Under the pieces are notes generated by a model. The model saw only the letters and a list, made by a program, of their open reading frames with translations. It was not told the DNA's origin and searched no databases. Both the position numbers and the translations under genes were made by a program. A stretch of DNA of 64,000 bases from Isoetes taiwanensis (taxonomy: Eukaryota; Streptophyta; Lycopodiopsida; Isoetales; Isoetaceae): NCBI GenBank assembly GCA_021234155.1, contig JAJEKV010000019.1:19777359-19841358 (forward strand). The letters run 5' to 3'. Shown piece after piece: positions 34,953-61,820 of this stretch. The stretch's first letter is position 1. Every line of letters begins with the position of its first letter.

Positions 34953-35434
34953 GGCTCCAGCCGGTCCAAGTTATTCCATGCCTATGATCAAGTCGTACTT
35001 GCCTATGTTCATCACTTCTGCTCCCATTCCAACATTGATACCTGGCAACTCCTGAGGTGACATCGTGTAGGGCGCCTTACTTGTTGGCTTAGTTCCTGGC
35101 TCAAGTGTTATTTCACACTCGACTCCTCTGTAAGGTGGGAGTTGCTTAATCTCATCTGGAAACAAATCATGGAATTCCTTCATCAACTTGGCTATCGGCT
35201 TTCGGAGCTTGCTCAATGCTTTGGCCTCTTTGTCTTCCTCTGCCTCTTGCTCGTCAACTTCGAGTTTAAGACATAGGCCACTTGCTCCTTTCTTATGCAT
35301 TTAAATAGCTTCTTACTAGACATGCATTCTATGCTTGGGGTGACTTCTTTACCTGTTATCTCAATGACTTCTTTACCTTTCCTTATCTGTTCTTGCCTCT
35401 TTACAAAGGCTTGTCCATACTTCTTTAAAGTCAC
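34953..35434 (-). pseudogene. Chimeric joint between duplicated polyprotein copies
   Basis: Protease-end sequence ([20 protein letters not shown]) at 34.96-35.05 kb is fused to a third copy of the spacer before RT ([15 protein letters not shown]-like, 35.05-35.33 kb). That is joined at about 35.37 kb to sequence matching the RNase H-integrase junction (as at 33.23 kb). So a third, internally deleted piece of the polyprotein lies between the two larger copies. Confidence 0.75.
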
Positions 35435-36531
35435 AAGGTCTCTTCAATCCTCTTGCCATACTCACTTGTGAGGGTCAATATGGCGTTGCAATGGGTCCTT
35501 GTCTTCAATGGCCTCCTGGAGAGCGCATCTGCTACTACATTTAGCTTGCCTGGCTTGTAGACTATTTCGAAGTCGTACTCTTCGAGAAATTCCATCCACC
35601 TCCTTTGCCTCAAATTCAGGAGTGGTTGCGTGAAGATGTACTAGAGGATTTGATGATCTGTATCTAGTTGGAACTTTCTTCCCAACAAGTAGTGTCTCCA
35701 GATTCTCAAGGCACTTACAATGGCCAAAAGCTCTTGGTCATGAGTCGGGTAGCATTGCTCTGCATCATTCATCTTCTTGGAGTCGTATGCGACTACCCTT
35801 CCCTCCTGCATGAGGACTGCTCCCGTTGCTATCTTGCTAGCATCAGTCGCTACAAGCTTATTCTTGCTTGGATCTGGCAAGACTAAGACTGGCGCAGTCG
35901 TTAAAGCTTCCTTCAACATCTCAAATGCTGCATGGGCCTTCTTTTGCCAATGACTTGCCCAATCTTTTATCTTTCCTGCCTTGGTGAGGTCCGTCAATGG
36001 AGCTGCCACCTTGGCAAAGTTCTTGACAAACTTCCTATAATACCCTGCTAAGCCGAGGAAGCTCCTCACTTCATGGGTGTTCTTTGGTGCCGGCCAATCA
36101 ATTACCGCTTCAATCTTTGCAGGGTCAGTGGAGATCCCTTCTGCCGTGATTACATGCCCCAAGTACTCCACTCTTTCTGTTGCGAAGTGACACTTGGATA
36201 GCTTCGCGTAAAGTTGATGCCTCATCAACTTTTCAAGTACTTTTCTCAAGTGCTGGACATGCTCCTCTAAGGATTTGCTGTAGACTATAATGTCATCAAA
36301 TAAAACTATGATGAAAGCATCTAGGAATTTGTGGAAAACATCATTCATGAGCCTCATGAAGGTTGCTGGAGCGTTGGACAATCCAAACGGCATCACTGTG
36401 AACTTATAATGGCCATATCTCGTCCTGAATGCAGACTTATGGATGTCCTCTTCCTCGATTCTGATCTGGTGATAGCCTGACCTCAAATCTATCTTAGAAA
36501 AGACCTTTGCTCCCTGCAGTTGATCCATCAA
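35435..36531 (-). pseudogene. Reverse transcriptase-RNase H, copy 2 (element II)
   Basis: This is a second, nearly identical copy of the RT palm-to-RNase H region. It has [40 protein letters not shown], catalytic [27 protein letters not shown] and [19 protein letters not shown], then RNase H ([17 protein letters not shown] and [20 protein letters not shown]) and, at 35431-35613, [19 protein letters not shown] stop at about 36540 cuts it from its N-terminal half. Its wording (GYHQIRI, APATF) is closer to the family norm than copy 1. Confidence 0.9.
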
Positions 36532-36540
36532 ATCATCTGA

Positions 36541-37344
36541 TCAAGGTAGAGCGTATTTGTTCTTGATGGTGTGCTTGTTCAATTGACGATAGTCAATGCA
36601 CATTCTAAGACTTCCATCCTTCTTCTTCACGACGAGTATTGGCGCTCCAAATGGAGAGACACTAGGTCTTATGAACCCTAGGTCTAGCAACTCCTGCAAT
36701 CGCTTCTTCAATTCCGTCAACTCCTGGGTTGACATCCTGTAGGGCGTCTTGCTTGTTGGCTTAGTTCCTGGCTCAAGTGCTATTTCACACTCGACTCCTC
36801 TGTAGGGTGGAAGTTGCTTAATCTCATCTGGGAACAAATCATGGAATTCCTTCACCAACTTTGCTATAGGCTTTGGGAGCGTGCTCAATGCTTTGGCCTC
36901 TTTCTCTTCGGTTGTCTCTTGCTCGTCAACTTCGAGTTTAAAGACATAGGCCACTTGCTCCTTCCTTATGCAATTAAGTAACTTCTTACTAGACATGCAT
37001 TGCATGAATGGGGTGACTTCTTTACCTGTTATCTCAATGATCTTGCCCTCTGGCGTTGTTAAGGTTACTTTTCGCTTCCCACAATCAATCATGGCTCCAG
37101 CCGGTCCAAGGTATTCCATGCCTATGATCAAGTCGTACTTGCCTATGTTCATCACTTCTGCTCCCATTCCAACATTGATACCTGGCAAGTCTATGTCGAA
37201 GTTGATCCTCTTCCCTGCTGTGTGTCGGATTGCCCCACTTGCCAACACAACTGGTCTAGGCTTGGACTGCAAAGGCTTCAGCTTCAACATCTCTATCATC
37301 CTTGGCGAAGCAAAATTGTGGGTACTCCCTATGTCTATCAGCAC
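36541..37344 (-). CDS. Protease and RT N-terminus, copy 2 (element II)
   Basis: A 267-codon frame begins inside the aspartic protease. The active-site motif reads [12 protein letters not shown], so the usual DSGS/DTGS is DIGS. Isoleucine in place of the conserved Ser/Thr would be expected to impair the enzyme. It continues through [16 protein letters not shown]-like and [20 protein letters not shown] into RT blocks ([32 protein letters not shown]) and ends at the stop near 36541. Confidence 0.88.
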
Positions 37345-37565
37345 TATGAAGGACTTGGACCGGACCTTCCCAATTGTCGAAATGACTTGGTATTGACTCT
37401 CAGCATTCTCGGAGTCAATAACAGCAAAGATGTGGCACTCACCCTGGATGTGGTCATGAGCATCTTCTTCGTCGATCTCTATCCTCCTAGCTCTGCTAAT
37501 GTCGCATTCATCACAAATGGGCAGTTATGTGTCCGATGTCCTGGCTGGAAGCATCTAAAGCACAA

Positions 37566-37991
37566 CTACTTTTCAATACATTCCTGCCTCTTCTCCTTGG
37601 GGATAGACTGTAAGAACTGCTTCACTGCTTTGGAGTAGTTTGAACCACCTCCTTGCTCCTTGAAGCTGACCTGCTTCTTGTCCTGCTTGCCGGAATTCGT
37701 GTTGGTTTGCTTCCCGTAGCTTGTGTTGTACTGTGGTCTGGTAGCTGCTGGGCGTGTTGCTCTTGGGCTGTAGCTTCCTGTAGCCTTCCCCTTGTTCTGA
37801 TAGTACTGTTGCCTCGACCCACTCCCTTGAGGTCCTGTTCCTTGCAAGCTCACTGCCTTAGACTCTGCTTCTGACACTGTTGTGGGGTTTGTTGCTCTCA
37901 CCAGCTTCCTGATCTCCTCATTTAAGCCTTCAATGTACCCCTCTACTAAATGTCTTTCACTCAATTTCGGCACATAGAGTCTCAGCCTCAT
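37566..37991 (-). pseudogene. Gag C-terminal half (element II)
   Basis: The frame starts MRLRLYVPKLSERHLVEGYI and goes on to EGLNEEIRKLVRATNPTTVS, as in Ty3 gag capsid ends, then a Gln/Thr/Ser-rich basic spacer. Reading upstream it continues as SVQKYTEEF at 37992-38015, where the tandem LTR array begins. A CCHC-like knuckle may lie left of 37566 (contexts ECIEK, then [12 protein letters not shown] in another frame near 37.53 kb). Confidence 0.82.
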
Positions 37992-38015
37992 GAACTCTTC
38001 GGTGTACTTCTGGAC

Positions 38016-38652
38016 TGATATGGTTTAAGGTTAATAACTAATGATGGTGCTCGGGGGAGTGGCCTTGCATGGAACAATATTTATTGATATGATCAAGTAA
38101 GAAAGCCATTCAATATGTCTAAGTCTTGATATTATCAAGGAGAGAGCTAAAAATAAACCTTGACCTTTATTTAGAAGCAAAAAGGCAAAAAATGTATTAT
38201 TACCTATAAATAAAAGGACAACTTTGCGACGTGATATCTCCCCGACCACAACTCAGAAATCGGCGATCCTTACCTTGCTGGAAAGCCCTTGAAGTATAGT
38301 TTCCAGATTGGGCCTATAGATTCCTTACGGTGTGCAAGTTATGCCCAGAAAGGTGCATAGGGGTCTAAGCTGACTGCACAGCTAAATCTGCTTCTTCCTA
38401 TGTTGTTGATGTGCCAAGCCTTACCTTCTAGTATCTTCTCTTGTTCCTTGCTTGATCATATCATTAGATAAGTTCCTATAACACCAGTGGTTAGTGGCTA
38501 GAGAGAGCTTGTTCTTATACAGTCTTGCGGAGTAGCTTGACTTGATGATATCTCTTCTAGTTGGTCCGGTTGGGTGGTAAATCGAGTATCATATGGTGTT
38601 TTACTTTCTAACATGTTGATGAATTTGCAGGAAGAATATAGCATTCATAACA
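38016..38652 (+). repeat. LTR 1 of array, primer site deleted
   Basis: This 637-bp LTR begins directly at the gag junction. After it, ATTGGT is joined to CTTTACCAGC; the other units have 19 more bases holding most of the primer site. The deletion lies between two GGT triplets. Confidence 0.85.
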
Positions 38653-39445
38653 ATTGGTCTTTACCAGCGGAGCTGTGGGTGATGGAAGAGTTGGAAATTT
38701 GAGTGGCTTAGCAGCACTCAAGATATCTTAAGGAAATAGGTTACCTCTTGTCTGGTATGAAGTTGATGTTTAAGGATTGTGATTAGAATCTTTAGAAATT
38801 TCTTATTGCATCCCGAGGAGGGGGAGGAATTGATATGGTCTGTGGGGTATGGGATAAAGCCTGGAAAGGTTGGGGCCCATTGGATAACGATTTCCTTGAA
38901 GGATCCGCCCTTTTGGCGTGTTGGTTAGTACTATGGAAAAATTTACCCTTAAAACCTTGTTATAAGCTTTGAATTTTGTCTAGATGGACTCGGGAAGAAC
39001 TATTCTATATTTAGTTGTGGTATAGCAACGAGTGAGTTTTAGGAACTGATGTATTTCTATGAGGAATGACCAACAATTAAGTTCTAATTTTAAAAATCTA
39101 AAACCGAAAAAGCTTGATGGTAATGGTTCAATGCTAACTAAGTTCACTTTGGCATATTGGGTGGAAAATTTTCGTGAACTTATGTTAGGTGATACGTCTG
39201 CGATTAGCGATTCTTCTTGGGTTTTGCGTGTTCTAAAGTTGTGATTGAGTTTTCGCAGAACATGGATATTACGATGTAAATGAGACTTGCGCAGGAGTAT
39301 GAGCGAACTTTGCCAGAATTCCTTATTAACGATTATAAGGATGTCAAGTCCTCTAAGTAAATTGACGCCATTTCTAATAGAACTGAAATGAAAACCTTTG
39401 TCGGACAACGGATTACCAGAAATTTTTAGCTTAAAGGGCTGGACT

Positions 39446-39700
39446 TGAATATTTCTAATTGTGGATTCAACTAGGGTTGCAACCATGGATTTGGTTGTGG
39501 TAGATATTTCTAGTTGTGGATTCAACTAGGGTTGCAACCATGGATTTGGTTGTGGTAGATATTTCTAGTTGTGGATTCAACTAGGGTTGCAACCATGGAT
39601 TTGGTTGTGGTAGATATTTCTAGTTGTGGATTCAACTAGGGTTGCAACCATGAATTTGGTTGTGGTATATATTTCTGATTGTGGATTCAATCAGGGTTGT
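39446..39700 (+). repeat. 55-bp minisatellite within array unit 1
   Basis: A 55-bp period (AGATATTTCTAGTTGTGGAT ... ACCATGGATTTGGTTGTGGT) is repeated about five times, with the last copies diverging (ATTTCTGATTGTGGATTCAA). The same block recurs in the other three internal regions (about 41.89-42.15, 43.79-44.05 and 45.70-45.97 kb). Confidence 0.9.
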
Positions 39701-39891
39701 AACCATGGACTTGGTTATGTTATTCTGCCATATAATTCTTGATCGAGGAAATAAGTTTATTCCTAAGAACAGAAAGACTAACACGCTTTCCAAAAATTGA
39801 TTGAAGATCAATTTTGAAAAGGGATCTTCGATGGTTTCCTTTCAGGTTTAATGATGATCGAGGACGATCATGTTTTGAGAAGGGAAGGAAT

Positions 39892-40529
39892 TGATATGGT
39901 TTAAGGTTAATAACTAATAATGGTGCTCGGGGGAGTGGCCTTGCATGAAACAATATTTATTGATATGATCAAGTAAGAAAGCCATTCAGTATGTCTAAGT
40001 CTTGATATTATCAAGGAGAGAGCTAAAAATAAACCTTGACCTTTATTTAGAAGCAAAAAGGCAAAAAAGGTATTATTACCTATAAATAAAAGGACAACTT
40101 TGAGACGTGATATCTCTGCGACCACAACTCAGAAATCGGCGATCCTTACCTTGCTGGAAAGCCCTTGAAGTATAGTTTCCAGATTGGGCCTATAGATTCC
40201 TTACGGTGTGCAAGTTATGCCCAGAAAGGTGCATAGGGGTCTAAGCTGACTGCACAGCTAAATCTGCTTCTTCCTATGTTGTTGATGTGCCAAGCCTTAC
40301 CTTCTAGTATCTTCTCTTGTTCCTTGCTTGATCATATCATTAGAAGAAGTTCCTATAACACCAGTGGTTAGTGGCTAGAGAGAGCTTGTTCTTATACAGT
40401 CTTGCGGAGTAGCTTGACTTGATGATATCTCTTCTAGTTGGCCCGGTTGGGTGGTAAATCGAGTATCATGTGGTGTTTTACTTTCTAACATGTTGATGAA
40501 TTTGCAGGAAGAATATAGCATTCATAACA
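39892..40529 (+). repeat. LTR 2 of array
   Basis: The 638-bp LTR runs TGATATGG to CATAACA. A TATA-like CCTATAAATA near 40080 is a possible promoter. The intact primer site follows at 40532-40543. Confidence 0.88.
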
Positions 40530-41010
40530 ATTGGTATCAGAGCTCAGTTCCGGTCTTTACCAGCGGAGCTGTGGGTGATGGAAGAGTTGGAAATTTGAGT
40601 GGCTTAGCAGCACTCAAGATATCTTAAGGAAATAGGTTACCTCTTGTCTGGTATGAAGTTGATGTTTAAGGATTGTGATTAGAATCTTTAGAAATTTCTT
40701 ATTGCATCCCGAGGAGGGGGAGGAATTGATATGGTCTGTGGGGTATGGGATAAAGCCTGGAAAGGCTGGGGCCCATTGGATAACGATTTCCTTGAAGGAT
40801 CCGCCCTTTTGGCGTGTTGGTTAGTACTATGGAAAAATTTACCCTTAAAACCTTGTTATAAGCTTTGAATTTTGTCTAGATGGACTCGGGAAGAACTATT
40901 CTATATTTAGTTGTGGTATAGCAACGAGTGAGTTTTAAGAACTGATGTATTTCTATGAGGAATGACCAACAATTAAGTTCTAATTTTAAAAATCTAAAAA
41001 CTGAAAAGCT

Positions 41011-41559
41011 CATTAGGGTTTTTTTGAGATTAAAAAAGGGCCTTCAAAACATGCCAACTAAGCCAAATGAAGATAAATGAACTACCAATCAGAAATCAGA
41101 GCTTGACGGGTCCAGTCAGCAAAACTGTTATAACTAACTCACTGGATCACATTTTCTAGCAAACTATTGATAGAAAAGTCAAAATGAGCTCTCGTTTAGT
41201 GCAATAGATAGATCTCGTTGAGATCTTTCCAACCTTAGGTGCTTTGCACATATTTTAACCACTTATGATTGTCAAAACGCCAAAAAATATTGTTTTTACC
41301 ATTTTTTACTATCCTACGGGGCTAAAAGATATGCAAACCACCCAAGGTTGGAAAGATCTCAATGAGATCTATCTATTGCACCAAACAAAAGCTCATTTGG
41401 ACTTTTCTATCAACACTTATGCTACAAAATGTGATCCAGTGAGTTAGTTATAACTGTTTTGCTGACTGGATTACCAGTTCTATTTTCTGATTGGTAGTTC
41501 ATATAGCTTAGTCAGCAGTTCTTAGAAGGCCCTTTTATGATCTCAAAAAATCCCTAATG
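41011..41559. mobile_element. MITE / fold-back element with ~220-bp terminal inverted repeats
   Basis: The 549-bp insert starts CATTAGGGTTTTTTTGAGAT and ends ATCTCAAAAAATCCCTAATG. The arms at about 41011-41237 and 41341-41559 are inverted copies (for example TAACTCACTGGATCACATTT in one and its complement in the other). The other array units give the empty site: AAAAGCTTGATGG against AAAAGCT[insert]TTGATGG, so only one extra T separates filled from empty. No coding capacity was found; the superfamily is not clear because no 2-, 3- or 8-bp duplication is seen. Confidence 0.88.
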
Positions 41560-42341
41560 TTGATGGTAATGGTTCAATGCTAACTAAGTTCACTTTGGCA
41601 TATTGGGTGGAAAATTTTCGTGAACTTATGTTAGGTGATACGTGCAGTTAGCAGTTACTGGGTTTGCAGGTTCTAAAGTTGTGATTGAGTTTTCGCAGAA
41701 CATGGATATTACGATGTAAATGAGACTTGCGCAGGAGTATGAGCGAACTTTGCCAGAATTCCTTATTAACGATTATAAGGATGTCAAGTCCTCTAAGTAA
41801 ATTGACGCCATTTCTAATAGAACTGAAATGAAAACCTTTGTCGGACAACGGATTACCAGAAATTTTTAGCTTAAAGGGCTGGACTTGAATATTTCTAATT
41901 GTGGATTCAACTAGGGTTGCAACCATGGATTTGGTTGTGGTAGGTATTTCTAGTTGTGGATTCAACTAGGGTTGCAACCATGGATTTGGTTGTGGTAGAT
42001 ATTTCTAGTTGTGGATTCAACTAGGGTTGCAACCATGGATTTGGTTGTGGTAGATATTTCTAGTTGTGGATTCAACTAGGGTTGCAACCATGAATTTGGT
42101 TGTGGTATATATTTCTGATTGTGGATTCAATCAGGGTTGTAACCATGGACTTGGTTATGTTATTCTGCCATATAATGCCATATAATTCTTGATCGAGGAA
42201 ATAAGTTTATTCCTAAGAACAGAAAGACTAACACGCTTTCCAAAAATTGATTGAAGATCAATTTTGAAAAGGGATCTTCGATGGTTTCCTTTCAGGTTTA
42301 ATGATGATCGAGGACGATCATGTTTTGAGAAGGGAAGGAAT

Positions 42342-42979
42342 TGATATGGTTTAAGGTTAATAACTAATAATGGTGCTCGGGGGAGTGGCCTTGCATGAAA
42401 CAATATTTATTGATATGATCAAGTAAGAAAGCCATTCAGTATGTCTAAGTCTTGATATTATCAAGGAGAGAGCTAAAAATAAACCTTGACCTTTATTTAG
42501 AAGCAAAAAGGCAAAAAAGGTATTATTACCTATAAATAAAAGGACAACTTTGAGACGTGATATCTCTGCGACCACAACTCAGAAATCGGCGATCCTTACC
42601 TTGCTGGAAAGCCCTTGAAGTATAGTTTCCAGATTGGGCCTATAGATTCCTTACGGTGTGCAAGTTATGCCCAGAAAGGTGCATAGGGGTCTAAGCTGAC
42701 TGCACAGCTAAATCTGCTTCTTCCTATGTTGTTGATGTGCCGAGCCTTACCTTCTAGTATCTTCTCTTGTTCCTTGCTTGATCATATCATTAGAAGAAGT
42801 TCCTATAACACCAGTGGTTAGTGGCTAGAGAGAGCTTGTTCTTATACAGTCTTGCGGAGTAGCTTGACTTGATGATATCTCTTCTAGTTGGCCCGGTTGG
42901 GTGGTAAATCGAGTATCATGTGGTGTTTTACTTTCTAACATGTTGATGAATTTGCAGGAAGAATATAGCATTCATAACA
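42342..42979 (+). repeat. LTR 3 of array
   Basis: This 638-bp copy is nearly identical to LTR 2. The primer site is at 42982-42993. Just upstream, at 42165-42185, the 11-bp segment TATAATGCCAT is duplicated only in this unit. Confidence 0.88.
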
Positions 42980-44231
42980 ATTGGTATCAGAGCTCAGTTC
43001 CGGTCTTTACCAGCGGAGCTGTGGGTGATGGAAGAGTTGGAAATTTGAGTGGCTTAGCAGCACTCAAGATATCTTAAGGAAATAGGTTACCTCTTGTCTG
43101 GTATGAAGTTGATGTTTAAGGATTGTGATTAGAATCTTTAGAAATTTCTTATTGCATCCCGAGGAGGGGGAGGAATTGATATGGTCTGTGGGGTATGGGA
43201 TAAAGCCTGGAAAGGTTGGGGCCCATTGGATAACGATTTCCTTGAAGGATCCGCCCTTTTGGCGTGTTGGTTAGTACTATGGAAAAATTTACCCTTAAAA
43301 CCTTGTTATAAGCTTTGAATTTTGTCTAGATGGACTCGGGAAGAACTATTCTATATTTAGTTGTGGTATAGCAACGAGTGAGTTTTAGGAACTGATGTAT
43401 TTCTATGAGGAATGACCAACAATTAAGTTCTAATTTTAAAAATCTAAAAACTGAAAAGCTTGATGGTAATGGTTCAATGCTAACTAAGTTCACTTTGGCA
43501 TATTGGGTGGAAAATTTTCGTGAACTTATGTTAGGTGATACGTGCAGTTAGCAGTTACTGGGTTTGCAGGTTCTAAAGTTGTGATTGAGTTTTCGCAGAA
43601 CATGGATATTACGATGTAAATGAGACTTGCGCAGGAGTATGAGCGAACTTTGCCAGAATTCCTTATTAACGATTATAAGGATGTCAAGTCCTCTAAGTAA
43701 ATTGACGCCATTTCTAATAGAACTGAAATGAAAACCTTTGTCGGACAACGGATTACCAGAAATTTTTAGCTTAAAGGGCTGGACTTGAATATTTCTAATT
43801 GTGGATTCAACTAGGGTTGCAACCATGGATTTGGTTGTGGTAGATATTTCTAGTTGTGGATTCAACTAGGGTTGCAACCATGGATTTGGTTGTGGTAGAT
43901 ATTTCTAGTTGTGGATTCAACTAGGGTTGCAACCATGGATTTGGTTGTGGTAGATATTTCTAGTTGTGGATTCAACTAGGGTTGCAACCATGAATTTGGT
44001 TGTGGTATATATTTCTGATTGTGGATTCAATCAGGGTTGTAACCATGGACTTGGTTATGTTATTCTGCCATATAATTCTTGATCGAGGAAATAAGTTTAT
44101 TCCTAAGAACAGAAAGACTAACACGCTTTTCAAAAATTGATTGAAGATCAATTTTGAAAAGGGATCTTCGATGGTTTCCTTTCAGGTTTAATGATGATCG
44201 AGGACGATCATGTTTTGAGAAGGGAAGGAAT

Positions 44232-44865
44232 TGATATGGTTTAAGGTTAATAACTAATAATGGTGCTCGGGGAGTGGCCTTGCATGAAACAATATTTATT
44301 GATATGATCAAGTAAGAAAGCCATTCAAGATGTCTAAGTCTTGATATTATCAAGGAGAGAGCTAAAAATAAACCTTGACCTTTATTTAGAAGCAAAAGGC
44401 AAAAAGGTATTATTACCTATAAATAAAAGGACAACTTTGAGACGTGATATCTCTGCGACCACAACTTCGGAAATCGGGATCCTTACCTTGCTGGAAAGCC
44501 CTTGAAGTATAGTTTCCAGATTGGGCCTATAGATTCCTTACGGTGTGCAAGTTATGCCCGAAAAGGTGCATAGGGGTCTAAGCCGACCGCCGCACTAAAA
44601 TCTTCTTCCTATGTTGTTGATGTGCGAGCCTTACCTTCTAGTATCTTCTCTTGTTCCTTGCTTGATCATATCATTAGAAGAAGTTCCTATAACACCAAAG
44701 TGGTTAGTGGCTAGAGAGAGCTTGTTCTTATACAGTCTTGCGGAGTAGCTTGACTTGATGATATCTCTTCTAGTTGGCCCGGTTGGGTGGTAAATCGAGT
44801 ATCATGTGGTGTTTTACTTTCTAACATGTTGATGAATTTGCAGGAAGAATATAGCATTCATAACA
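44232..44865 (+). repeat. LTR 4 of array, more diverged
   Basis: This 634-bp copy has several small indels (GGGGAGTGG with one G fewer, AAAAGGCAAAAAGG) compared with LTRs 2 and 3. The primer site is at 44868-44879. Confidence 0.88.
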
Positions 44866-46148
44866 ATTGGTATCAGAGCTCAGTTCCGGTCTTTACCAGC
44901 GGAGCTGTGGGTGATGGAAGAGTTGGAAATTTGAGTGGCTTAGCAGCACTCAAGATATCTTAAGGAAATAGGTTACCTCTTGTCTGGTATGAAGTTGATG
45001 TTTAAGGATTGTGATTAGAATCTTTAGAAATTTCTTATTGCATCCCGAGGAGGGGGAGGAATTGATATGGTCTGTGGGGTATGGGATAAAGCCTGGAAAG
45101 GTTGGGGCCCATTGGATAACGATTTCCTTGAAGGATCCACCCTTTTGGCGTGTTGGTTAGTACTATGGAAAAATTTACCCTTAAAACCTTGTTATAAGCT
45201 TTGAATTTTGTCTAGATGGACTCGGGAAGAACTCTTCTATATTTAGTTGTGGTATAGCAACGAGTGAGTTTTAAGAACTGATGTATTTCTATGAGGAATG
45301 ACCAACAATTAAGTCCTAATTTTAAAAATCTAAAAAAAGTCAAAAGCTTGACTTTGCAATGGTTCAATGCTAACTAAGTTCACTTTGGCATATTGGGTGG
45401 AAAATTTTCGTGAACTTATGTTAGGTGATACGTGCGATTAGCGATTCTTCGGGTTTGCTTTAGTCGTGTTCTAAAGTTGTGATTGAGTTTTGCTAACTAA
45501 GTTCACTTTGGCATAACATGGATATTACGATGTAAATGAGACTTGGGGCAGAGTGAGCCGAACTTTGCGATGTAATTCCTTATTAACGATTATAAGGATG
45601 TCAAGTCCTCTAAGTAAATTGAGGCCATTTCTAATAGAACTGAAATGAAAACCTTTGTCGGACAACGGATTACCAGAAATTTTTAGCCTAAAGGGCTGGA
45701 CTTGAATATTTCTAGTTGTGGATTCAACTAGGGTTGCAACCATGGATTTGGTTGTGGTAGATATTTCTAGTTGTGGATTCAACTAAGGTTGCAACCATGG
45801 ATTTGGTTGTGGTAGATATTTCTAGTTGTGGATTCAACTAGGGTTGCAACCATGGATTTGGTTGTGGTAGATATTTCTAGTTGTGGATTCAACAAAGGTT
45901 GCAACCATGAATTTGGTTGTGGTATATATTTCTGATTGTGGATTCAATCAGGGTTGTAACCATGGACTTGGTTATGTTATTCTGCCATATAATTCTTGAT
46001 CGAGGAAATAAGTTTATTCCTAAGAACGGAAAGACTAACACGCTTTTCAAAAATTGATTGAAGATCAATTTTGAAAAGGGATCTTCGATGGTTTCCTTTC
46101 AGGTTTAATGATGATCGAGGACGATCATGTTTTGAGAAGGGAAGGAAT

Positions 46149-46779
46149 TGATATGGTTTAAGGTTAATAACTAATAATGGTGCTCGGGGGAGTGGCCTTG
46201 CATGAAACAATATTTATTGATATGATCAAGTAAGAAAGCCATTCAGTATGTCTAAGTCTTGATATTATCAAGGAGAGAGCTAAAAATAAACCTTGACCTT
46301 TATTTAGAAGCAAAAAGGCAAAAAAGGTATTATTACCTATAAATAAAAGGACAACTTTGAGACGTGATATCTCTGCGACCACAACTCAGAAATTGGCGAT
46401 CTTTACCTTGTTGAAAAGCCCTTGAAAGATCTTTTCCAGATTGGGCTCGGTTGCCTGTAGATTCCTTACGGTTTGAAAGTTATGCCCAGAAAGGTGCATA
46501 GGGGTCTAAGCTGACTGCACAGCTAAATCTGCTTCTTCCTATGTTGTTGATGTGCCGAGCCTTACCTTCTACTATCTTCTCTTGTTCTTGCTTGATCATA
46601 TCATTAGAAGGAGTTCCTGTAACACCAGTGGTTGGTGGCTAGAGAGAGCTTGTTCTTATACAGTCTTGCGGAGTAGCTTGACTTGATGATATCTCTTCTA
46701 GTTGGTCCGATTGGGTGGTAAATCGAGTATCATGTGGTGTTTTACTTTCTAACATGTTGATGAATTTGCAGGAAGAATA
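46149..46779 (+). repeat. LTR 5 of array, 3' end missing
   Basis: The copy starts TGATATGG and stops at GGAAGAATA, without the usual TAGCATTCATAACA end, and passes straight into gag of element II (minus-strand FYRLE). It has private changes near 46393-46470. Confidence 0.85.
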
Positions 46780-47524
46780 GCTACTCCAACCTATAGAACT
46801 GTTGCATCATATGGCACTTGTGTTCCCTTGGCACATAGTGTCGCTTGAATCCTTTGGCGAACTTCTTAAACCTGCAGCTATCTCTGCTTAACCCATGGGC
46901 TTTGGCATAGCCTTTTCACCAAATCCTGGCTGCTCCCTTGAGGTTGGCTGTTGCTACCCTGCCCTTGTCCTTATCCTTCGTGCTATAAGCATTCCCATAC
47001 TCCCTCATTTCATTCAACCATGCCTCGGCTTCCATTCCAGACCTGTTGTCCCCTGAGAACTGTTCTAACTTCCTGGCTTTCCACACGTTGCTCAGCGCCG
47101 AGTCGACTTTCTTCTGATAATCTGCTTCCATTCCGCCCCTATCACGGTTAGGACCCTCCCGGCGGTCCTGTCGATTGTTCTCATACTCCTAAAATTCGGA
47201 GTCGGAGTCGGAACTAGAGTTGGAGGGATCCGCGCTAGGTGATCTCCTTCTCCGGCTTCTCTTCTTTGCTTTGACTGCTCGGCTGGCCAGTGTTTCCGGT
47301 AGTTGGACGTTCTGGTCTGGTGCCATTGCTGCCGTCCCGCCAGCAAGGCTCTTATTTCATGGATATCCGATCTTATCTGCGATATTTCTTCTTCTGGGAT
47401 TGGTGCCTCAAACTCCTGGAATAGGTTCCTTGGCTGAAATTGCCTTACAGGTGTTTGATCTTCCAGAGGTTGTCTATCGTGTTCCACATTTCTGGATGCT
47501 CTGGCTGCATACACATGAGATTGC
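46780..47524 (-). pseudogene. Gag N-terminal half (element II)
   Basis: The frame at 47092-47524 holds ARASRNVEHDRQPLEDQTPV and EEEISQIRSDIHEIRALLAG. A shifted frame continues with NVWKARKLEQFSGDNRSGME, AEAWLNEMREYGNAYSTKDK and LKGAARIW at 46916-47131, the start of the retrotransposon gag domain. It is then open to FKRHYVPREHKCHMMQQFYR at 46780, where the LTR array cuts it. Frame changes at about 47.1 and 46.9 kb break it. The right side is cut by the L1 insertion. Confidence 0.8.
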
Positions 47525-50039
47525 ACTCTGATGATTTTTTTTTTTTTTTTTTTTTGAGTGAATGGGGTTTTTTTCATTAATTATAGAAAAAGGTACAACA
47601 TAGTGAGTGAACCTTTATAGATAGGCTACTCATGATAAAACAAGCACATGAACATAAATGAAATAGGTGCTGCTGTAAGCACATAGTAATGTAATATGTA
47701 ATATGTTAACAAAAGCAGTAGTGAACTGTAAAAGTAGATGGGATATATATTGTGCTGCAACTAAGTGTGTTGGCAGCATAAGTGAACACACTTATCAGAG
47801 CAGTTCCTGCAGAGAAAAAGTAGATGTTAATAAGCTGTAGATGTTATATGCAAGTCTGTTTCAAGCCAGAAGGGATAAGTGCAGGTCACTGATTTGTGAG
47901 GGTGGGATGATTTGTGTGAAAGTGATAGGAGTTTAGGAATTCATAGTGAGCTCGAAAGTTTGGCTGAAGTATAAGAGTTCTGCCATTTCCCCAGTTTAGC
48001 TCAGTGATCAACCTGTCTGCATTGGTAGTGGACATCAGAATTATTAAAGTGCCATATGCATCTGCCAGTCCCCTATGATGGTAGTAGCATTCCCTGTAAT
48101 ACTCAAACTGCTGATTTGTCATTCTTCTACTGTTACTCTCCATGAACCACCATATCTCATGCATTAGGTATGTGCTTCTACAGAACTCCATAGCCCAATC
48201 TAATTCTTCATCTGGTATGTCAATGATGTCTATACCGTGATCCCTCTAACTGTGCCTGTCCATATATCATGTGTGTATTGTATGTCATGTACCAGCCTCT
48301 GCCCTGGAAAGTCTGTACTCTGCAGGCTCCACTGAAGTGCCAAAGTCTCTGCTAAGGCTCCTCATGTAATCTAGGAGAAGTGCATTAAGTGTCAGTAAGT
48401 AAATCATGACAATTTAGTTTGAACAGTCTATGAGCTCCTATGAATTGGCCTATATTTAACCATTGTGTATCCAAATCATCTTTGTGCAAGTGTTTTTGAC
48501 TGGTGGCAACCATCTCAATGTCATATATAACTTGAGATTTAATCCAGAACATAGATATTTATTTTCCTCCATATTGGCACCTGTTTCTATGCTTCCAAAC
48601 ATTCTATAATGCAATGCAACATTAAGTATTCTTATAAGCATCATCATTCATCATAAATTCAAGTAAAGTAGCAAGACAATTTATATGAAAAGTATTTTCA
48701 AACCATGCCCAAAAACTAGTAAGCTTTACACAGCCAAATATGTGCTCCATAGATTCAACATAGTTGCATCCAAGAGGGCAGTAAGGATTAACTGAATTTA
48801 TTGTAGAATTGGAGTGCCTTGAGATAGTTTCCAGACATGGCACACTCTTATTTGCAATTAACCATGCAAAATAAGAAATTTTGGGGGGCAAGTAGGAAAG
48901 CCAGATATTCTTGCACAATCTGAATGCAGTGTCATCTGAAAGGTCCCAATAGAGCTTAGATTTGGAAGGTGCATGAGGCTTATTTAAACAAGTATAAACC
49001 TTGGATACATTGTAGCTGGGTTTACCACAGAGGGTCCATTGGGCAGTGATAGGATTGTGGTGAACGTTGACATTGCCAATTCTTTGCATGATGAATCTGT
49101 ACATAGTTTTATCTGAAGCTCTGATTCGATTTTTCAGATTGGTCCAGGAGATCCACCTTGTGTGATCCCAGAGATCACCAAGATGTAATATACCATAAGA
49201 CATCCATTTTTTATAGAGCTTTGGGTGGTTTATGGCCAGAGGAGTAGTATTATCCCTGGAGAAATTGGGATTCCAGAATAAACTTGTGTTGGAGTGACTG
49301 TTCTCAATAGCAGAAATATCAAAGGTTTTGTGAACCTTATTCCAAGCCAGAATGAAGCTTTTCATGAGAGGGGAAGTATTAGGGGCAGGTTTCAAAGTTG
49401 TGAAAGCTGAGGAAGGTAAGCTATGGCTGATGGAAGGATGCCCCTTGGGATGACTGCAGGACAGCCAATATTTGATGAAGACCATGGCTGGATTGTTGTG
49501 ACTGAATAATGATTTCCAGATGTACTTCCCAGCTAAAGCATAGCCCTGAAGGATCAAGTTTTTGCATCCAAGGCCACCATGTATCTTGCTTCTGGTGATA
49601 GTGTTCCAGTTAACCATGTGATGATTCTTCCAGATAAAGTTTCTTACAATTCTCTCAATTTGCTGGTAAATGCATTTGGGAGCCAAGAGAGCTGAGGAGT
49701 AATAAATGTGAGAGGCAGCAATGACTGAGTTAGCAATTATTGTTCTCCCTGCAAGAGAGAGACAATTGCCATAATTGCCTAATTTCTTTCTGATTCTTGC
49801 AACTATTGGAGACCATAACTCTTTTAAACTGGGATTGAGTGATAGAGGCATACCTAGTAGGCTTGTTGTCTCAGTTGATCTAATGCATTTGATACCTGCA
49901 ATGCTATCAGTGTCCATGTCCCCAATGATAGTACATTTATTTAGGTTCAACTGTATGCCAGAAGCAGCTCCAAAGATGTGAATGATGTGGAGGAAATTGG
50001 CAATGATGCTAGAATCATTCTTGAGAAACTCTGATGATT
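47525..50039 (-). mobile_element. 5'-truncated L1 LINE with 12-bp target duplication
   Basis: The direct repeat ACTCTGATGATT occurs at 47525-47536 and 50028-50039. On the minus strand the element ends in about 19-21 A (T run 47535-47555). A 442-codon frame at 48622-49950 starts inside the RT thumb (NLNKCTIIGDMDTDSIAGIK). It continues through LGMPLSLNPS, LSLAGRTIIANSVIAASHIY and KIHGGLGCKNL and closes with the zinc-binding domain PYCPLGCNYVESMEHIFGC. The endonuclease and RT catalytic core are absent, as in ordinary 5' truncation. The well-kept frame and exact duplication point to a fairly recent insertion. Confidence 0.92.
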
Positions 50040-53312: not shown

Positions 53313-54858
53313 TCATCCCAAGTTCCTAAGGATGTTGGTGGCCGTGCCTCCTTGGAGTGCTGTCACCAAGTCTTCGACCCTTCTCTCCGATGTGTAGGCT
53401 GCAGTGATGGCCAACCTGCCCTGTCACCTATAAGGGACTGTAAAGTCGAAGATGCTTAAAGCTATTGTCCTCTCGACAAGGATGACTTGGTCGATGTTTG
53501 GGGGCATCCGCGCATGTCTTCCGAATCCTGAGAGGGCAATCAGCATAAAAACCCCTTCTTCTCCGCGTGGCTGAATTGGCAGTGTATGACTGCTATCCTA
53601 CCATCAGTGAGCAATGGCAAGTAGAACCTGAGGGCTTTGTCGTGCCCTGCCTCCCCTGCCTCCTCTCCAGTTCTGATTGCAGCCCTGTGTCTTCCCGCTT
53701 ATCCGTCCACCGGTATTGCTATCATCTCCCTGTAGTCGCCAAACATAGACCTAGAAGAGGTCAAGTTGATACCGCCTGTTTCCTGTCCGGCTGGTGCTAC
53801 TGCAGAGGTGCTGGGTAGGAGTGCACTCGTTGTTTTCTCCCTGATTCCCATTCGCTCTTGGAGTGCTATGAACTCCTCCTCCGTGGGTAGCTCCTGCTGT
53901 GCCATCATCTGCCTAATGCCAGTGTAGGCTTCTATATATCTGTTGATGACTGGCCAGTATACGTGCAAGCCTCCCTGATACTAATGGAAAAATCTTGGGT
54001 CTCCCGGTCGATGAAGTCATCGAGGTCGGGCTGCTGGCGTAGGAGGTGTAGGAGTTCATCTATCCTGTAACCCCTGTCCTTGCACTCGGGGAGGTTCTTG
54101 ATGTCGTGTAGGGTCAGGTATGCTTCTCCTTGAATGATGACCGGGTTAGGCTCATGATGCCTAGCCCAAGTGGTAGAGCCGTCCTTGTCGCTCTTAACCC
54201 TTCTTCGAAGCTCGGCAGGTCTTGTTCGGCTTGCTACCTTTTCTGTGTGGGGTCGATGTCGATGATGTCATCCACGTCAGACCCACGTCCTTCCTCTTCA
54301 TCCTGCTTTGCCTCTTCGTACTCCAGAAGCATCTGCTCCTCTTCACCTTCTTCCATGGCCATGGGCTCAAGGTCTAGGGGTTGAACAGAAGGTTCTCCTC
54401 TGGGTTTGGGCTCGTTGGGACAAGAATATAGCTACAACTACAGTGTAGGAGAAATTCCTCCTATTTACAACTACAGACATGTAATTGGGCATGCGGGTAG
54501 CCTTATTTTCTAGATACTTGTCTATCTTTGGAATGTCCTATAGAGCTGCACGAAGAGCTATGCTAGGTGCAAAGTATCATATGCAAGGGGGACGTTCTAC
54601 GAAAGAGGTCCCTATCTTGGCATAGAACTCGGTCAAGATCTCTTGGTAGTAAGGAGTAGCATTGATGGTGGCATCCACATCGATATCCATCTGAAAAACA
54701 GCGAAGACCGAATCGATGTCAGCTTCAACCACATGAGCAGTGGCGTTGTACCATCGTCTGAATGCAGAGGTTGCCATGATACTAGAGCTGCTGGGGTTAT
54801 CAAACAGATGTGAAAGCGCCTCTGGGTGCTGAAAAATTGCCTTGGAGTGAGGCGCCAT
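53313..54858 (-). pseudogene. Unrecognised ORF2 of the H3-like module (about 500 codons, broken)
   Basis: Minus-strand coding segments follow in order. They include MATSAFRRWYNATAHVVEAD (54777), an acidic run EEGEEEQMLLEYEEAKQDEE (about 54.3 kb), NPVIIQGEAYLTLHDIKNLP and CKDRGYRIDELLHLLRQQPD (about 54.1 kb), then HVYWPVINRYIEAYTGIRQM (53.95 kb). The rest reads FYLPLLTDGRIAVIHCQF (53.6 kb) and LVERTIALSIFDFTVPYR up to ILRNLG-stop at 53313. The first ATG, 54858, lies too close to the TATA box (about 54890), so the ATG at 54777 is the better start. Several frame breaks exist. I do not recognise a family; it has neither zinc knuckle nor enzyme motif, and shares promoter design with the H3-like gene. 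Confidence 0.5.
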
Positions 54859-54887
54859 AGAGTAGGGTACAAATGAGGGTTGCGGTC

Positions 54888-54930
54888 CTATTTATAGGCA
54901 AAACTCTAATTTGGAAAATTTTAGGGTTTG
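54888..54930 (-). promoter_or_regulatory. TATA box and telo-box of ORF2
   Basis: On the minus strand CAAACCCTAAAATTTTCC (about 54930-54914) is followed by CCTATAAATAGG (about 54898-54887). The same pair occurs in front of the H3-like gene. Telo-boxes (AAACCCTA) are known from plant histone and ribosomal-protein promoters. Confidence 0.6.
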
Positions 54931-55485: not shown

Positions 55486-56626
55486 TTAACAATCTTCCTT
55501 CTTAATAAACCTAGCCAATTTCATATCCCTAGGCATACAAGTTACTCTCTTTGCATGGAGAGCATATGCTAGAGAGTCTTCAAAGTGCTGGACCAGCTTT
55601 TGCTCTGCTGCCTCCTGCAATGCGGGTAATATATCGTCTGTTACTCTCTTCGTGCTGTCGAACTCTTGTAAGATTTCTCTGGTCAATCTTGCGAAGACAG
55701 CTCTTAGTATTAGCAGTTTGTAGCTCCTCTGAAAATGACGGATCTCCCGAGCAGCTCTCACAAAATAGGAGTCCGCCTTTCTCTTCATCGGCTTCTTTGG
55801 GGGTGTGGGTCTCTCCGGGGGCGGCTTCAACGTGTTTTTCTTAGATGGCCTTCCTCCCTCCACATATGTTACCTTGTGTTCTTCATAATATTTGGAGTAC
55901 TCCTCGTACATTTTCATGTACTCGTTGTACTCCTTCAGCTTTTTCCTGTAGTCTCGCTCATGCTTGAGTACATAAGACTCTCGTGTTGGCCTGCTCTTTT
56001 TCGGATCTGTTGTTGGCTTCGGCCACTTGGGGTATAGGGGCGCTGCTGCTGCCGATTCCTCCTCAGCATCCACATTTGAAGGTCCCGAGCCTTCTGTTGG
56101 GCGGGGGACCCTTGACTCATCTTCATCTGACTCAGTGCTTGATGACGATGATGGCGGCCTGTCGGGCTCCCGCTCACTTATGCTGACCCCCGTTGCCGGT
56201 GTCGACTTTGTCTTGCACCGGGGTTTCTTGGGCACCTCGGGATCCTTTCCTTTATCCTCCTTCAATTTTTGGCGCTCCTCCCTCAATCTCTTCCGCTCCA
56301 GCTTCTCTGCAATCCTCTTCCTCTTTGCCACTCTCTTCCTCTTTCCCATCTTCTTCAGCTTACGTACCAGCTCCTCTGGTAGTGCTTCGTCCTCGTCATC
56401 CTCGTTTTCTCCTCCATCGCCCTAATTCTCGGGGTTTTCATTGGGCATGTTCCTCCTCGTCCTGCTGCTCGTGATCCTCCTTCTCAGCATCAGGATTCGT
56501 GTCCGGGTTCTCTTCTTGCCTGGCTCACTCTAGAGCCTCTTTGGCCTTCTGTTGAGCTGCGAGGATCTGGGCGCTGACATAATCGTCTGGTACTACCATC
56601 CGAGCGGTTTGTTTGGTGCGGGCCAT
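55486..56626 (-). pseudogene. Histone H3-like gene with very long tail and methionine at the H3K9 position
   Basis: From the ATG at 56626 the product starts MARTKQTARMVVPDDY: residues 1-8 of mature H3 are identical, and Met replaces Lys9. A TGA follows at 56525-56527 (codon 34), then a frameshift and a TAG at 56422-56424. A clean 287-codon frame runs to 55486. It is Lys/Arg-rich, then Ser/Asp/Glu-rich, then has a YNEYMKMYEEYSKYYEEH coiled stretch. Residues 197-287 are an H3 fold: AREIRHFQRSYKLLILRAVF (alphaN/alpha1), LPALQEAAEQKLVQHFEDS (alpha2) and HAKRVTCMPRDMKLARFIKK (L2/alpha3). Loop 1 is not lengthened as in CENH3. H3 is normally about 135 residues; this would be about 380. Introns could remove some lesions, but none is obvious. 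It lies inside giant Ty3 element II. Confidence 0.85.
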
Positions 56627-56918: not shown

Positions 56919-56935
56919 ACACCTTATGTAATAAC

Positions 56936-58188
56936 ATATCAATAACATCAGCATCACATGGGAGATCCTACCCAAGGGTTCAGACTCCAAGGTATGGACT
57001 GACAGCTTAGGCCTCTAGAAGTCAATGCAGACAGAATTCATGGCAAATGGATTGGGCTGGCATAGAAACATGGCTGTTGGGTAGTCCACTCCATCCGCCC
57101 CTCCCGTGCACACTTTGCAGAGTAGGTTGAAGAGTCTTGGGACTGGACTGTAGCCTGCTGGGTGCATAGCCAAAGGGGCTATTGCTGGGTTGCATCTCCC
57201 CAGTTCTGATGAGGCAGGAGGAGAGTCTCCTCCCCCCCAGAGGCATGCATGCCCATCACAGGGGGCTAGAGGGCCACTGCCTGTATTCGACTTGAACCTC
57301 ATTGAAGGTGACGCATCACCCAACAGGTGTTGAGCTCATGCCTTACCTACACGCAGCGGTAAACCATTAAGCCTAGCCAGCTTAGATCCCCGGTAGGCTT
57401 TACACACCAGAAGGATCAGTCAGTGATGGGACAAGTCCCCCTTATTCCACCTGTCTAGCCCCGCCACCCACAACTAGGCGGGCTCTTGTACACGGGCCGC
57501 ATTAATTGGGAATTAATGAGGTTAACTAGGATCATCTGCTACTGAAGGTTTCAGGGTCTCTACCCCCCTTTCCACATACACAGGAGAGCATAGAATGGAG
57601 CATCAACATCAAAGATCAATACCAAATACTGAAATACTGAATGAGATCTAATCTATCTTACCTAATCATACAAGGTTAGGTTCTTTCATTATGGATGGTG
57701 ATCTTAGGATCTGCAAGGCTGATCGGACTGATCTAACATACTATCCTAGCTCATTGCCGGGCTAAGAGGCGGGTTTGCACAATCTCCCCCGATTGCGTCC
57801 ATGGCTTCGATCTTGCTGAAGACTATTGCTCTTGGTGAATCTAATGTGCAAGGGCGGCTCAACGGCACCTGGCAATGCGAAATGGCAGCTTGCCTTAGCT
57901 GGAATGGCTTAGGGAAGCCAAAAATGCGAAAGAAGAAAGGTTTAGGGTTTCCCATTTGGTTCCTTATATGTGAACTTTTAGGGTTAGGTTAGAAGGGACC
58001 AAATGGAGTATTGCCACTTGGCAAGGGGGGTTTTAATTGCATATGTATAATATAAATGCGCAACATACGAGGTTGCCCCCTAGGTGCAACCCCTTTATGG
58101 CTCTCAAGTACTTGTCGTGATGACATGTACGTGTGACGTGGCAGTATAATATATGTACTCGGATCGTATGTTATGCTAGAATGTCACA
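56936..58188 (-). repeat. 5' LTR of giant Ty3 element II, inner end missing
   Basis: From ATGTAATAACATATCAATAA (56936) to the end GTCACA (58188) it is nearly collinear with 29959-31253. The 256 bases that would follow at its inner end (as in 29703-29958), and the primer binding site, are replaced by the H3-like module. A telo-box-like and a TATA-like site are present as in the other LTR. Confidence 0.88.
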
Positions 58189-59486: not shown

Positions 59487-61820
59487 AGGAAGGAAGGTTC
59501 TTTTATCGTCCACAGAGGCCAATCGGCCTATGGGACCCAAATTACACGGGTGCAGCAAGCCCGTTGCTACCCGGATTAAAAAACCCCTCCTTACGAGGGA
59601 AAAATCGTCGCAGCAACAAGCCTGCTGGCAGCTGTACAAATATACATATACACATGAATTCCCGGCATCTCAGGTAGGCGCCCGGGGGCAGAGGTGAGTC
59701 CGCAGATCCAAAACCTTCTGGATGTAGGAGCCAAGGGATCGAACTGAAGGCGTACTGAGTAGCTCGTGCAGGGGCAGACCAGGTCGCACCAAGAGAACGT
59801 AGCGAGCCCAAATCTGACTATAGGCTGGACAGCTCTGGAAGGCATGGCTTTCATCCTCAACAATCCTCAGCGGGCAACACTGACAATGCCTGTCCTGGCG
59901 CGGCTCTCCAACCCACCGACCCGTCTCAAGCCGAAGATGGTGGGCCCCTGTTCGAATGGACGCGATGATCCTGTGCTTCTTCATGGGCAACTGAGAACGC
60001 AGGTAGAGCTGTGGGCCTCGAACCAGGGTGGGGTTTATGTGCTGTTTGTAGTGTGCCATCTTTACCTGTTCCAGAGCATGGTGGTCCCAGAGCTTCCCCA
60101 GGAAACAAGAGTCCAAGTACCCCCTCAGGCTATCCCGGCCGGCATCTGTGTGCACCTGGACACACCTATGTGTGTCTACGTTCCAGCGCGCCAGCCACTG
60201 GGCTCTCTTGTCCTTCCAACAAGCCCCGAGTCGTTGCGGGCTCATCGCCACAGCGTAAGCCAAGTGCGGGAGCCGAGTGTCGCCCATGCTGGCCACCTTC
60301 TTGAAATAAACAATGTGTCTATCGAGGGTCGCATGCTGCAGGGGCATGAATCCTGTCTCCTGCAACAAGATTTGATATGGAACTGAGGACTTGACCCCAA
60401 GTGCCCGCGTCAAAAATGCCTTCTGGACCTGCTCTAAGTCGTTCTAAGTCGCCAAAGACACCACTGGGCCCCACAACTCGACCCCATACAGAAGAACTGG
60501 CTCCACCAGTGCCCGGAACAAATGCGACTGGTGGCATACAGCTCTGCCCTGTGACTATTGTTTTGCATTGCGTACAACGCCTTCCAACCTGCGGTCACCC
60601 GAAGGCGAATGGACGCATTCCAATACATTGAGGACGGAAATTCCACCCCCAGGTACTTGTAGCTGGGTGTGACCTCTACCATCTGCCCCTGATAAGTGAG
60701 CTCCGGAGGTGCTGGATGACGTGAGGAGGATATGAGGACCATCTTAGTCTTAGCCAGGTTGACACGCATGTCCATCGCCTGACAGAATGTGTCCAGGGCA
60801 TCTAGGTGTGCCTGCATGCCCTTGGGTGTATGGGCCAAGAGGTCCACATCATCCGCATAGATGAGCTACCGGATGACCTGGTGCAAGAGCTGTATACCGT
60901 CCCCCCATTGGCAGCAAGCCAAGCTTCCAACTGGTCAATGTAAAGTCCAAAGAGTGTGGGTGAGAGAGGACATCCTTGCCTAACTCCAATGCTGCTGGCA
61001 AATGACTGTCCTTCCGGTTGCATGCGGCCTGTGCAGCTCTCTTACAGTCTGTACACTGCATTCTACAGATCCATAGGGAGTCCCAGATGGTGCAATCTCG
61101 CCCACAACTTTTCCCGGGGTACTGTGTCGAAAGCTTTTGCAAAGTCCACAAAACAGCAGTAGAGGTCCTCCCGACGGTTCTTGCTGTCCTCGACCAGGGC
61201 CCTGAGTGTGAAGATGTGATCAATGGTCGAATGTCGGGATCGGAAGCCTGCCTGGGTAAGTGCCCTGACTTCTGCTGCCTCTGCCCATCTGATTACCTGC
61301 TGTTCGAGAATGCCCGGGCACAACTTGGCAAACACTGAGCTGACTATGATGGTTCGGTAATTGGCTGGACAGTGTGGATCCCCTGCTTTGTAGATCGGAA
61401 CAACCCTGCTTGTGGTCCATGACCAGGGAAAACCCTCTTGCAGCGCCCTGTTGAACAGTGCAGCAAGGACGAGCACCATGGGCTGTCCTGCCCACTTGAG
61501 CAACTCCGCTTGCAGGTCGTCTAAGTCTGCTGCCTTCCCATTAGCCAGGCGCTGCAGCCCCTCTTCGACATCCTCTTCTGTGATCACCAGCGGTGGGCCA
61601 TGTTGCGGGGGCACATCTGTCCGTGTTCCGGGGGATCATAAAGCTGTTGCAGGTACTGCTCCCATTGCACCGCCATGATATTTCCCGTAGGCTGTGCTGG
61701 CCTGCAGAGTACCCTGCGCCAGAAAGTTCTCGGGTGGGCGTCTAGTAGGCCGAACATTTCTCCTTGGTGCCTTGCCAGGTACCTTGCTTTTGTTTCCTTG
61801 AGGAAAAGGTCGATATTTCT
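59487..61820 (-). pseudogene. LINE with RT and C-terminal zinc motif, CTTC-type 3' tail
   Basis: RT starts at 61063-61614 (DLQAELLKWAG, VVPIYKAGDPHCPANYRTI, TQAGFRSRHSTIDHIFTLRA, CCFVDFAKAFDTVPREKLW). It goes on at 60802-61023 (IGVRQGCPLSPTLFGLYIDQ), has a catalytic YADDVDLLAHTPKG with a TAG three codons before it, then YKYLGVEFPSSMYWN at 60434-60847. The C-terminus at 59670-60413 ends in RTGAHHLRLETGRW and CQCCPLRIVEDESHAFQSC. On the minus strand the 3' end is a (CTTC) repeat (59487-59503) without a long A run. It is the same clade as the LINE at 20.4-23.5 kb but GC-rich. Frame changes make it inactive; the endonuclease is missing. Confidence 0.9.

Follow-up and report, generated by a model that had tools for sequence, protein, structure and literature searches.

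Histones carried by selfish replicons are known from bracoviruses (histone H4) and from giant viruses, and the ARSK tail of influenza NS1 imitates the H3 N-terminus over a short stretch and engages chromatin factors. In the genome of the lycophyte Isoetes taiwanensis we find a histone H3 gene carried by LTR retrotransposons, and we know of no other retrotransposon with a core histone. The bracovirus and giant-virus cases involve another histone and other replicons, and are without the exact H3 N-terminus and long linker described here; the NS1 mimic is C-terminal, comprises four residues and has no histone fold. There are precedents for viral histones and for short H3 mimics; what is new, in that we have not found it elsewhere, is an H3 borne by a retrotransposon. 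Our literature search, limited in extent and short of establishing absence from print, returned no transposon-borne H3, and the word "histone" is absent from the main text, in the portions available, of the I. taiwanensis genome paper (PMC8566536) and of the Isoetes sinensis paper (PMC10541799).

The elements themselves share with plant chromoviruses their LTRs, a gag with a CCHC motif, protease, reverse transcriptase (RT), RNase H, integrase and chromodomain, but add two 5' ORFs, one of which is an H3. Extra forward ORFs of at least 250 codons located 5' of the polyprotein (eORF-5'F) have been described in plant LTR elements (Neumann 2019, PMC6317226); in the available part of that survey these ORFs are highly heterogeneous, whereas the Isoetes ORF is an H3 conserved across subfamilies, and "histone" occurs there once, as a chromodomain ligand. 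The transposon protein shares with H3 of the host (L134 and L135, same genome) residues 1-8, identical in most copies, together with the bundle residues and the loop-1 arginine. It differs from host H3 in having a long charged linker in place of residues 10-40, Lys, Met, Ile, Val or Leu at residue 9, Ser10 only rarely, and changes at R63, K56, K79 and F84, and in being borne between LTRs.

The H3-like gene and the elements that carry it

The window, by which we mean the whole stretch of 64,000 nucleotides analyzed, contains the H3-like gene on its minus strand (56626-55486), as determined by sequence reading and ORF translation; the initial annotation named no strand. The gene opens with an ATG at 56626-56624, and the protein starts with MARTKQTARMVVPDDY. 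Its first nine codons (56600-56626) specify Met followed by ARTKQTAR, identical to H3 residues 1-8, and the codon for H3 position 9 (56597-56599) is ATG, so that the frame beginning MARTKQTARM, with Met at position 9, is where the initial annotation had seen it. This copy was described there as broken by a TGA, a frameshift and a TAG, and all three can be placed: the first in-frame stop, TGA, at 56525-56527, a frame change near 56450, and the TAG just above 56421. From that point a 311-aa stop-to-stop frame (55486-56421, minus) comprises a basic/acidic linker, a conserved charged module (SYVLK..KKPMKR, 55789-55977, minus) and the histone H3 fold (55507-55821, minus). Within it, a 287-aa ORF runs open from an internal ATG at 56349 down to 55486, and residues 177-281 of this ORF match the Pfam Histone family PF00125 (E 3.7e-20); the top PDB chain is histone H3.3 (E 2.3e-19). 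The proposal that the same gene ends in an H3 fold is thus upheld. When the 287-aa ORF was searched against proteins, three with a histone domain were returned and no transposon relative, and a scan of viral contigs found no relative.

The gene lies within an element of 28.2 kb end to end, delimited by a direct repeat of 1.26-1.30 kb. Comparison of the window with itself by blastn identified the 5' LTR (56926-58188, minus), with TG..CA ends by eye, as about 93%-94% identical to the 3' LTR (29959-31253, minus). The polypurine-like tract GGTGGGGAGAT is found just inside the 3' LTR, and no target-site duplication was seen by eye at this element or at the second element described below. Proceeding along the minus strand, the H3-like gene is followed by broken remains of ORF2 (53699-54891), which in related elements encodes an acidic protein after the H3 ORF, then by gag remains (46791-47580), which share 72.6% DNA identity with the region of the gag ORF in the second element, and by a broken pol (32150-38022; pol pieces at 32150-37524) with protease, RT, RNase H, integrase zinc finger and Tf2-type SH3; of the chromodomain only broken remains can be made out by eye. 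Since the gag homolog is found at about 47548-46791 on the same strand, the H3-like gene sits between the 5' LTR and gag, the position originally assigned to it. The window shows further structure of its own. Within pol, a 1.8-kb stretch is duplicated (33230-35048 and 35376-37188, 90% identical); between gag and pol (38016-46926) there are direct repeats, comprising four to five similar units spaced about 1.8-2.4 kb apart, four of which each contain a 55-bp minisatellite; and LINE-type pieces with zf-RVT are located at 48622-50037, inside the element, and at 59670-60443 (weak, E 0.0085).

A second element, around locus L028, was assembled from pieces read separately rather than in one continuous read. 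Along its strand the order is LTR, H3 ORF, ORF2, gag, RT, RNase H/integrase, chromodomain, LTR, over a span of about 20 kb. Its H3 ORF is open (397 aa) and has Lys9. The LTR is a 2.4-kb direct repeat, 94%-98% identical to the downstream copy, and thus of a different length from the 1.26-kb 5' LTR of the window. Its gag (457 aa) matches Retrotrans_gag (E 6.5e-15) and Ty3_capsid (E 1e-14) and has a zinc knuckle. The RT was recognized by its DNA match to the RT of the window; pol is not intact here either, with about 5 kb separating the RT piece from the RNase H piece. ORF2 (L028:2-1096, minus) encodes an acidic protein of at least 365 aa, for which neither a Pfam match nor a PDB profile match was found and the structure model was useless (pLDDT 38). 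Pieces of ORF2 were present 3' of the H3 ORF in Lys9, Ile9 and Met9 loci among the 15 inspected, a set outside which the L069 family lies. Both this element and that of the window have an LTR pair around gag-pol in Ty3 order, and the layout of the L028 element, with LTRs, gag, RT, integrase and chromodomain in addition to the H3 ORF, identifies these elements as chromoviruses carrying an H3 gene. The sequence thus shows the H3-like gene to be a regular constituent of one clade of Ty3/gypsy elements with chromodomains.

The chromodomain after the integrase of the L028 element (L073:6339-6572, minus) is recognized by PF00385 with E 1.1e-10. By eye, it is without the first and third residues of the aromatic cage (type II); the available part of PMC6317226 gives the cage as retained in chromoviruses of non-seed plants. 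The presence of this domain would suit a targeting device, in which the H3-like protein ties either the pre-integration complex or the chromodomain of the integrase to chromatin and thereby steers insertion. The plant type II chromodomains are given without a known partner in the same part of that survey, and repeats and genes are evenly spread in the Isoetes genome according to the sections of PMC8566536 at hand, both of which would also fit. The H3 ORF is however separate from gag-pol and 5' of gag, and a tether does not require an exact H3 tail; we consider this explanation unlikely.

Extent of the family and linkage of tail, fold and LTR

The genome searched comprised 1,658,258,908 bases in 1,110 contigs; in the sections of PMC8566536 at hand, the assembly is given as 1,658.30 Mb in 204 scaffolds and 909 contigs, with an N50 of 17.4 Mb and Gypsy elements accounting for 10.7%. 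A degenerate MARTKQTAR pattern, which also admits Ser codons at both Arg places, had 1,888 matches in the genome and none in the reversed control, and on this count, together with the Pfam and PDB matches of the fold, chance resemblance to H3 was rejected. We read 90 tails, the first 90 in order among the matches listed. They come from contigs C1-C224; 30 were read together with their flanks, the other 60 in short stretches. The sequence was exactly MARTKQTAR in 88 and had Ser at residue 8 in the other two. Only two tails (L084 and L085) belong to host H3; the other 88 do not.

When the 287-aa ORF was compared with the genome, at least 137 matches were listed, many in open frames (136 were scored, of 12,685 first-look candidates). 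From these we took 40 loci by their fold, not at random: the best 20, and 20 more picked mostly for long open frames and for a spread of identities. The best match to MARTKQTAR had all nine residues in 27 of the 40 and at least seven in 39, with none in L002. Among the 30 loci selected by their tail, a match to the fold profile was found 0.68-1.22 kb downstream in 24, searching the strand of the tail only; one of the 30, L069, is also in the profile, and some hits are fragments in broken frames. No fold was found on that strand in L051, L055, L058, L061, L066 and L067. LTR sequence of the window was present upstream on the same strand, with both strands searched, in 31 of the 39 fold-selected loci with a tail (a count that includes the window's own copy and L006, with a 72-base match only) and in 20 of the 30 tail-selected loci, although the identity of the upstream matches as LTRs is established for the window and L028 only. 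The relatives of the gene are therefore not confined to places outside LTR elements, and the initial proposal of an H3 mimic borne by a Ty3 family stands. The same counts, and the repetition of the order in the L028 element, led us to reject a nested or accidental insertion by an LTR.

MARTKQTAR also heads tails of another type (V/M-PG..GP..; L051, L055, L099, L111 and L136-L139), some of which continue FAEAxAxExARTEEEKxLFAGIQVVP. At L051 and L055, with 1.5 kb of flank, no H3 fold was found on the strand of the tail, and loci of this kind may join the H3 tail to a protein body other than a histone.

Evidence of purifying selection on the tail and the fold

Open ORFs were found at 20 of the 40 fold-selected loci, spread over several subfamilies. 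We aligned 17 unbroken ORFs, namely 16 of these 20 and L069, leaving out L010 (a near-copy of L008), L022, L035 and L038. They encode 379-421 aa with a common layout: H3 residues 1-8 at the N-terminus, a long charged linker, the conserved module and a C-terminal H3 fold. Residues 1-8 are exactly those of H3 in 13 of the 17, L032, L021, L036 and L006 departing at residues 2, 7 or 8; Lys4 is present in all. The rates of nonsynonymous and synonymous substitution, which are pooled Nei-Gojobori values from open ORFs only, with dS saturated between subfamilies, differ substantially along the protein. For tail codons 2-9, pS is 0.63 and pN 0.045 (omega 0.03), and for codon 10, corresponding to H3 position 9, pN is 0.31. 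Omega is then 0.41 for codons 11-36, 0.24 for the middle of the protein, 0.12 for the module preceding the fold and 0.08 for the fold itself. The comparison of dN/dS on tail and fold for which the initial annotation had called thus yields low values for both. When L069 is compared with the other 16 ORFs, pS in the tail reaches 0.83 with a pN of only 0.05 (against a pN of 0.46 in codons 11-36), which argues that the tail is kept by selection and not by recent copying alone. Counter to this, the tails of the four Met9 ORFs, compared with one another, show a single replacement but no synonymous change. Overall, the substitution patterns point to purifying selection on the tail (H3 residues 1-8) and on the fold, and the best-preserved part of the protein is residues 1-8, the Lys4 side.

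These values bear on two further explanations. The first is that a host gene was captured, has no function, and is carried along while decaying. In its favor, the copy in the window is broken and many others have stops; the low omega of tail, module and fold (0.03-0.12) over deep divergence, and open ORFs in several subfamilies, speak against it, and we disfavored this explanation as extremely improbable. The second is that the product is a histone-like nucleic-acid packer, condensing RNA or cDNA in the virus-like particle. Its highly charged linker and histone fold would suit such a role, as would a gene adjoining the 5' LTR; gag, however, already has a zinc knuckle, and packing provides no cause for the maintenance of ARTKQTAR at an omega of 0.03, so a particle protein seems very improbable to us.

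The profile built from the 17 ORFs matches H3 in the PDB with E 2.7e-27. Among the 70 loci, 45 folds could be read in one frame, broken copies included; their identity to host H3 is 44%-57% (median 51%). The residues of the H3-H3' bundle, C110 (43 of 45), H113 (41), R116 (45), D123 (43) and L126 (45), and the loop-1 arginine R83 (43) are retained, as are K115 (44) and T118 (42). Other positions have changed: R63 is Pro in 42 folds and F84 is Val in all 45, while K56 is lost in 44 and K79 in 43; taken together, these four positions are changed in 43-45 folds. Since these are DNA-contact or modified residues, stable incorporation into nucleosomes is uncertain. We also considered a centromeric histone: no insertion at residues 78-88, and hence no longer loop 1, was found in any of the 45 folds, and the N-terminus is that of H3 itself, so CENH3 was rejected. 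The AlphaFold model of the protein is weak (pLDDT 60.7, pTM 0.28) and a Foldseek search with it found no PDB match at E 0.001; what is said here about structure therefore rests on sequence.

In a tree of the 45 transposon folds, to which a canonical H3 and two histones from the database were added as the only other entries, the transposon folds form one side of a branch supported at 100/99. This separation from H3 makes a single capture likeliest. Lys9 prevails in the deepest rows, which also include two with Val9 (L053 and L054). The Ile/Val/Met group of the window (24 rows, of which one has Ala and one is unread) is nested (97/80), and many of the inner branches are weak. The simplest reading of this sequence tree would be one capture from an H3 gene, followed by repeated loss of Lys9.

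Residue 9 and a possible role in chromatin silencing

The state of residue 9 varies widely across the family. The 39 fold-selected loci have Met (18), Lys (11), Ile (5), Val (4) and Ala (1), and the 90 tails have Lys (51, two of them host H3), Ile (16), Val (15), Met (3), Leu (2), Thr (2) and Glu (1). Lys9 is thus the commonest state and probably, judging from tails and tree, the ancestral one, and Met9 is a minority state. Yet Met9 is not confined to the decayed copy in the window, a possibility that the initial annotation had left standing: 18 fold-selected loci have it, several of them in open frames, and the tail pattern followed by ATG has 80 matches in the genome. There are also unbroken sister subfamilies with Lys9. 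Because the copies of a transposon do not arise independently, recurrence of Met9 was counted by sequence context, and at least five contexts could be told apart by eye: MVVPDD, which is that of the window; MPGYGP, with the sister IFGYGSG; MV[RS]NDDR, with the Lys sister KVS[KN]DD; MFGERP, with the Lys sister KFGERP; and MHPGG, with the Ile sister IHPGG, the last two Met contexts each read in one copy. The pattern followed by ATH (Ile9) has 314 matches. Beyond residue 8 the H3 tail is absent: the residues after position 9 are unrelated to H3, with no K9-S10, K14 or K27, and Ser10 occurs in three of the 90 tails, two of which are host H3.

Proteins of the H3K9M type inhibit H3K9 methyltransferases, and the initial annotation had proposed trapping of this kind for the gene in the window. 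That Met9 mainly serves as a poison for the host enzymes would agree with its recurrence in those 80 matches and at least five contexts, and with the aliphatic character of most other replacements (Ile, Val and Leu in the tails, Ile in the 314 matches), Val requiring two base changes from Lys. To our knowledge, Val and Leu are not established as SET traps. Further against such a poison, Lys9 is the commonest and probably ancestral state, Ser10 is missing from nearly all tails of the transposon type, and the copies do not represent independent events; as the main function it appears distinctly unlikely from these sequences. Lys9 is present in unbroken sister subfamilies, in most of the deepest rows of the tree and in most tails, so that trapping covers at most some lineages; and as it is also the state of the subfamily with most open frames, loss of Lys9 is unnecessary for the success of the element. 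A reading based on Met9 alone was accordingly rejected as a general rule, while trapping is retained as possible for some lineages. It draws partial support from the 39 non-Lys tails, of which 36 are aliphatic, a bias more easily explained by a trap, or by a residue that cannot be methylated, than by drift.

We put at about an even chance a reading in which a chromovirus-encoded H3 imitates the tail on its H3K4 side and uses its fold for docking, with a residue at position 9 that in some lineages is unmethylatable or traps SET domains. The fold would pair with host H4 or with itself, placing the protein in or on chromatin, and the tail would show ARTKQTAR as a ligand to the readers, writers and erasers of H3K4 in the host, as substrate or decoy, and so engage factors for which a free H3 N-terminus and Lys4 are the recognition features. 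With residue 9 relaxed or aliphatic and residue 10 almost never Ser, H3K9 silencing would be blunted; in the lineages with Met, Ile, Val or Leu, residue 9 would be unmethylatable and might fill the SET channel. Since it has lost the remainder of the H3 tail, hardly ever has Ser at position 10 and usually has Lys or an aliphatic residue at position 9, the protein would carry the activation-side signal while weakening silencing based on H3K9. The likeliest net effect would be element chromatin open enough for transcription. The conserved tail and fold suggest that the elements interfere with the plant's marking or silencing of their chromatin, and we infer an anti-silencing role for the H3-like protein. 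Tentatively, and with more doubt than belief, we also raise the idea that the clade may have domesticated H3 as a dedicated chromatin weapon, in which a K4-side tail on a nucleosome-competent fold would mark the element's own copies as active and repeated swaps of Lys9 for aliphatic, unmethylatable residues might jam SET enzymes, with H3K9 as the object of an arms race.

Should the tail act as its sequence suggests, transposons could oppose silencing at the nucleosome itself instead of hiding from it. The occurrence of Lys, Met, Ile, Val and Leu at position 9, behind nearly fixed H3 residues 1-8, amounts to a natural series on blocking or escaping H3K9 methylation, and the H3 gene is also relevant to the abundance of these elements in this lycophyte genome.
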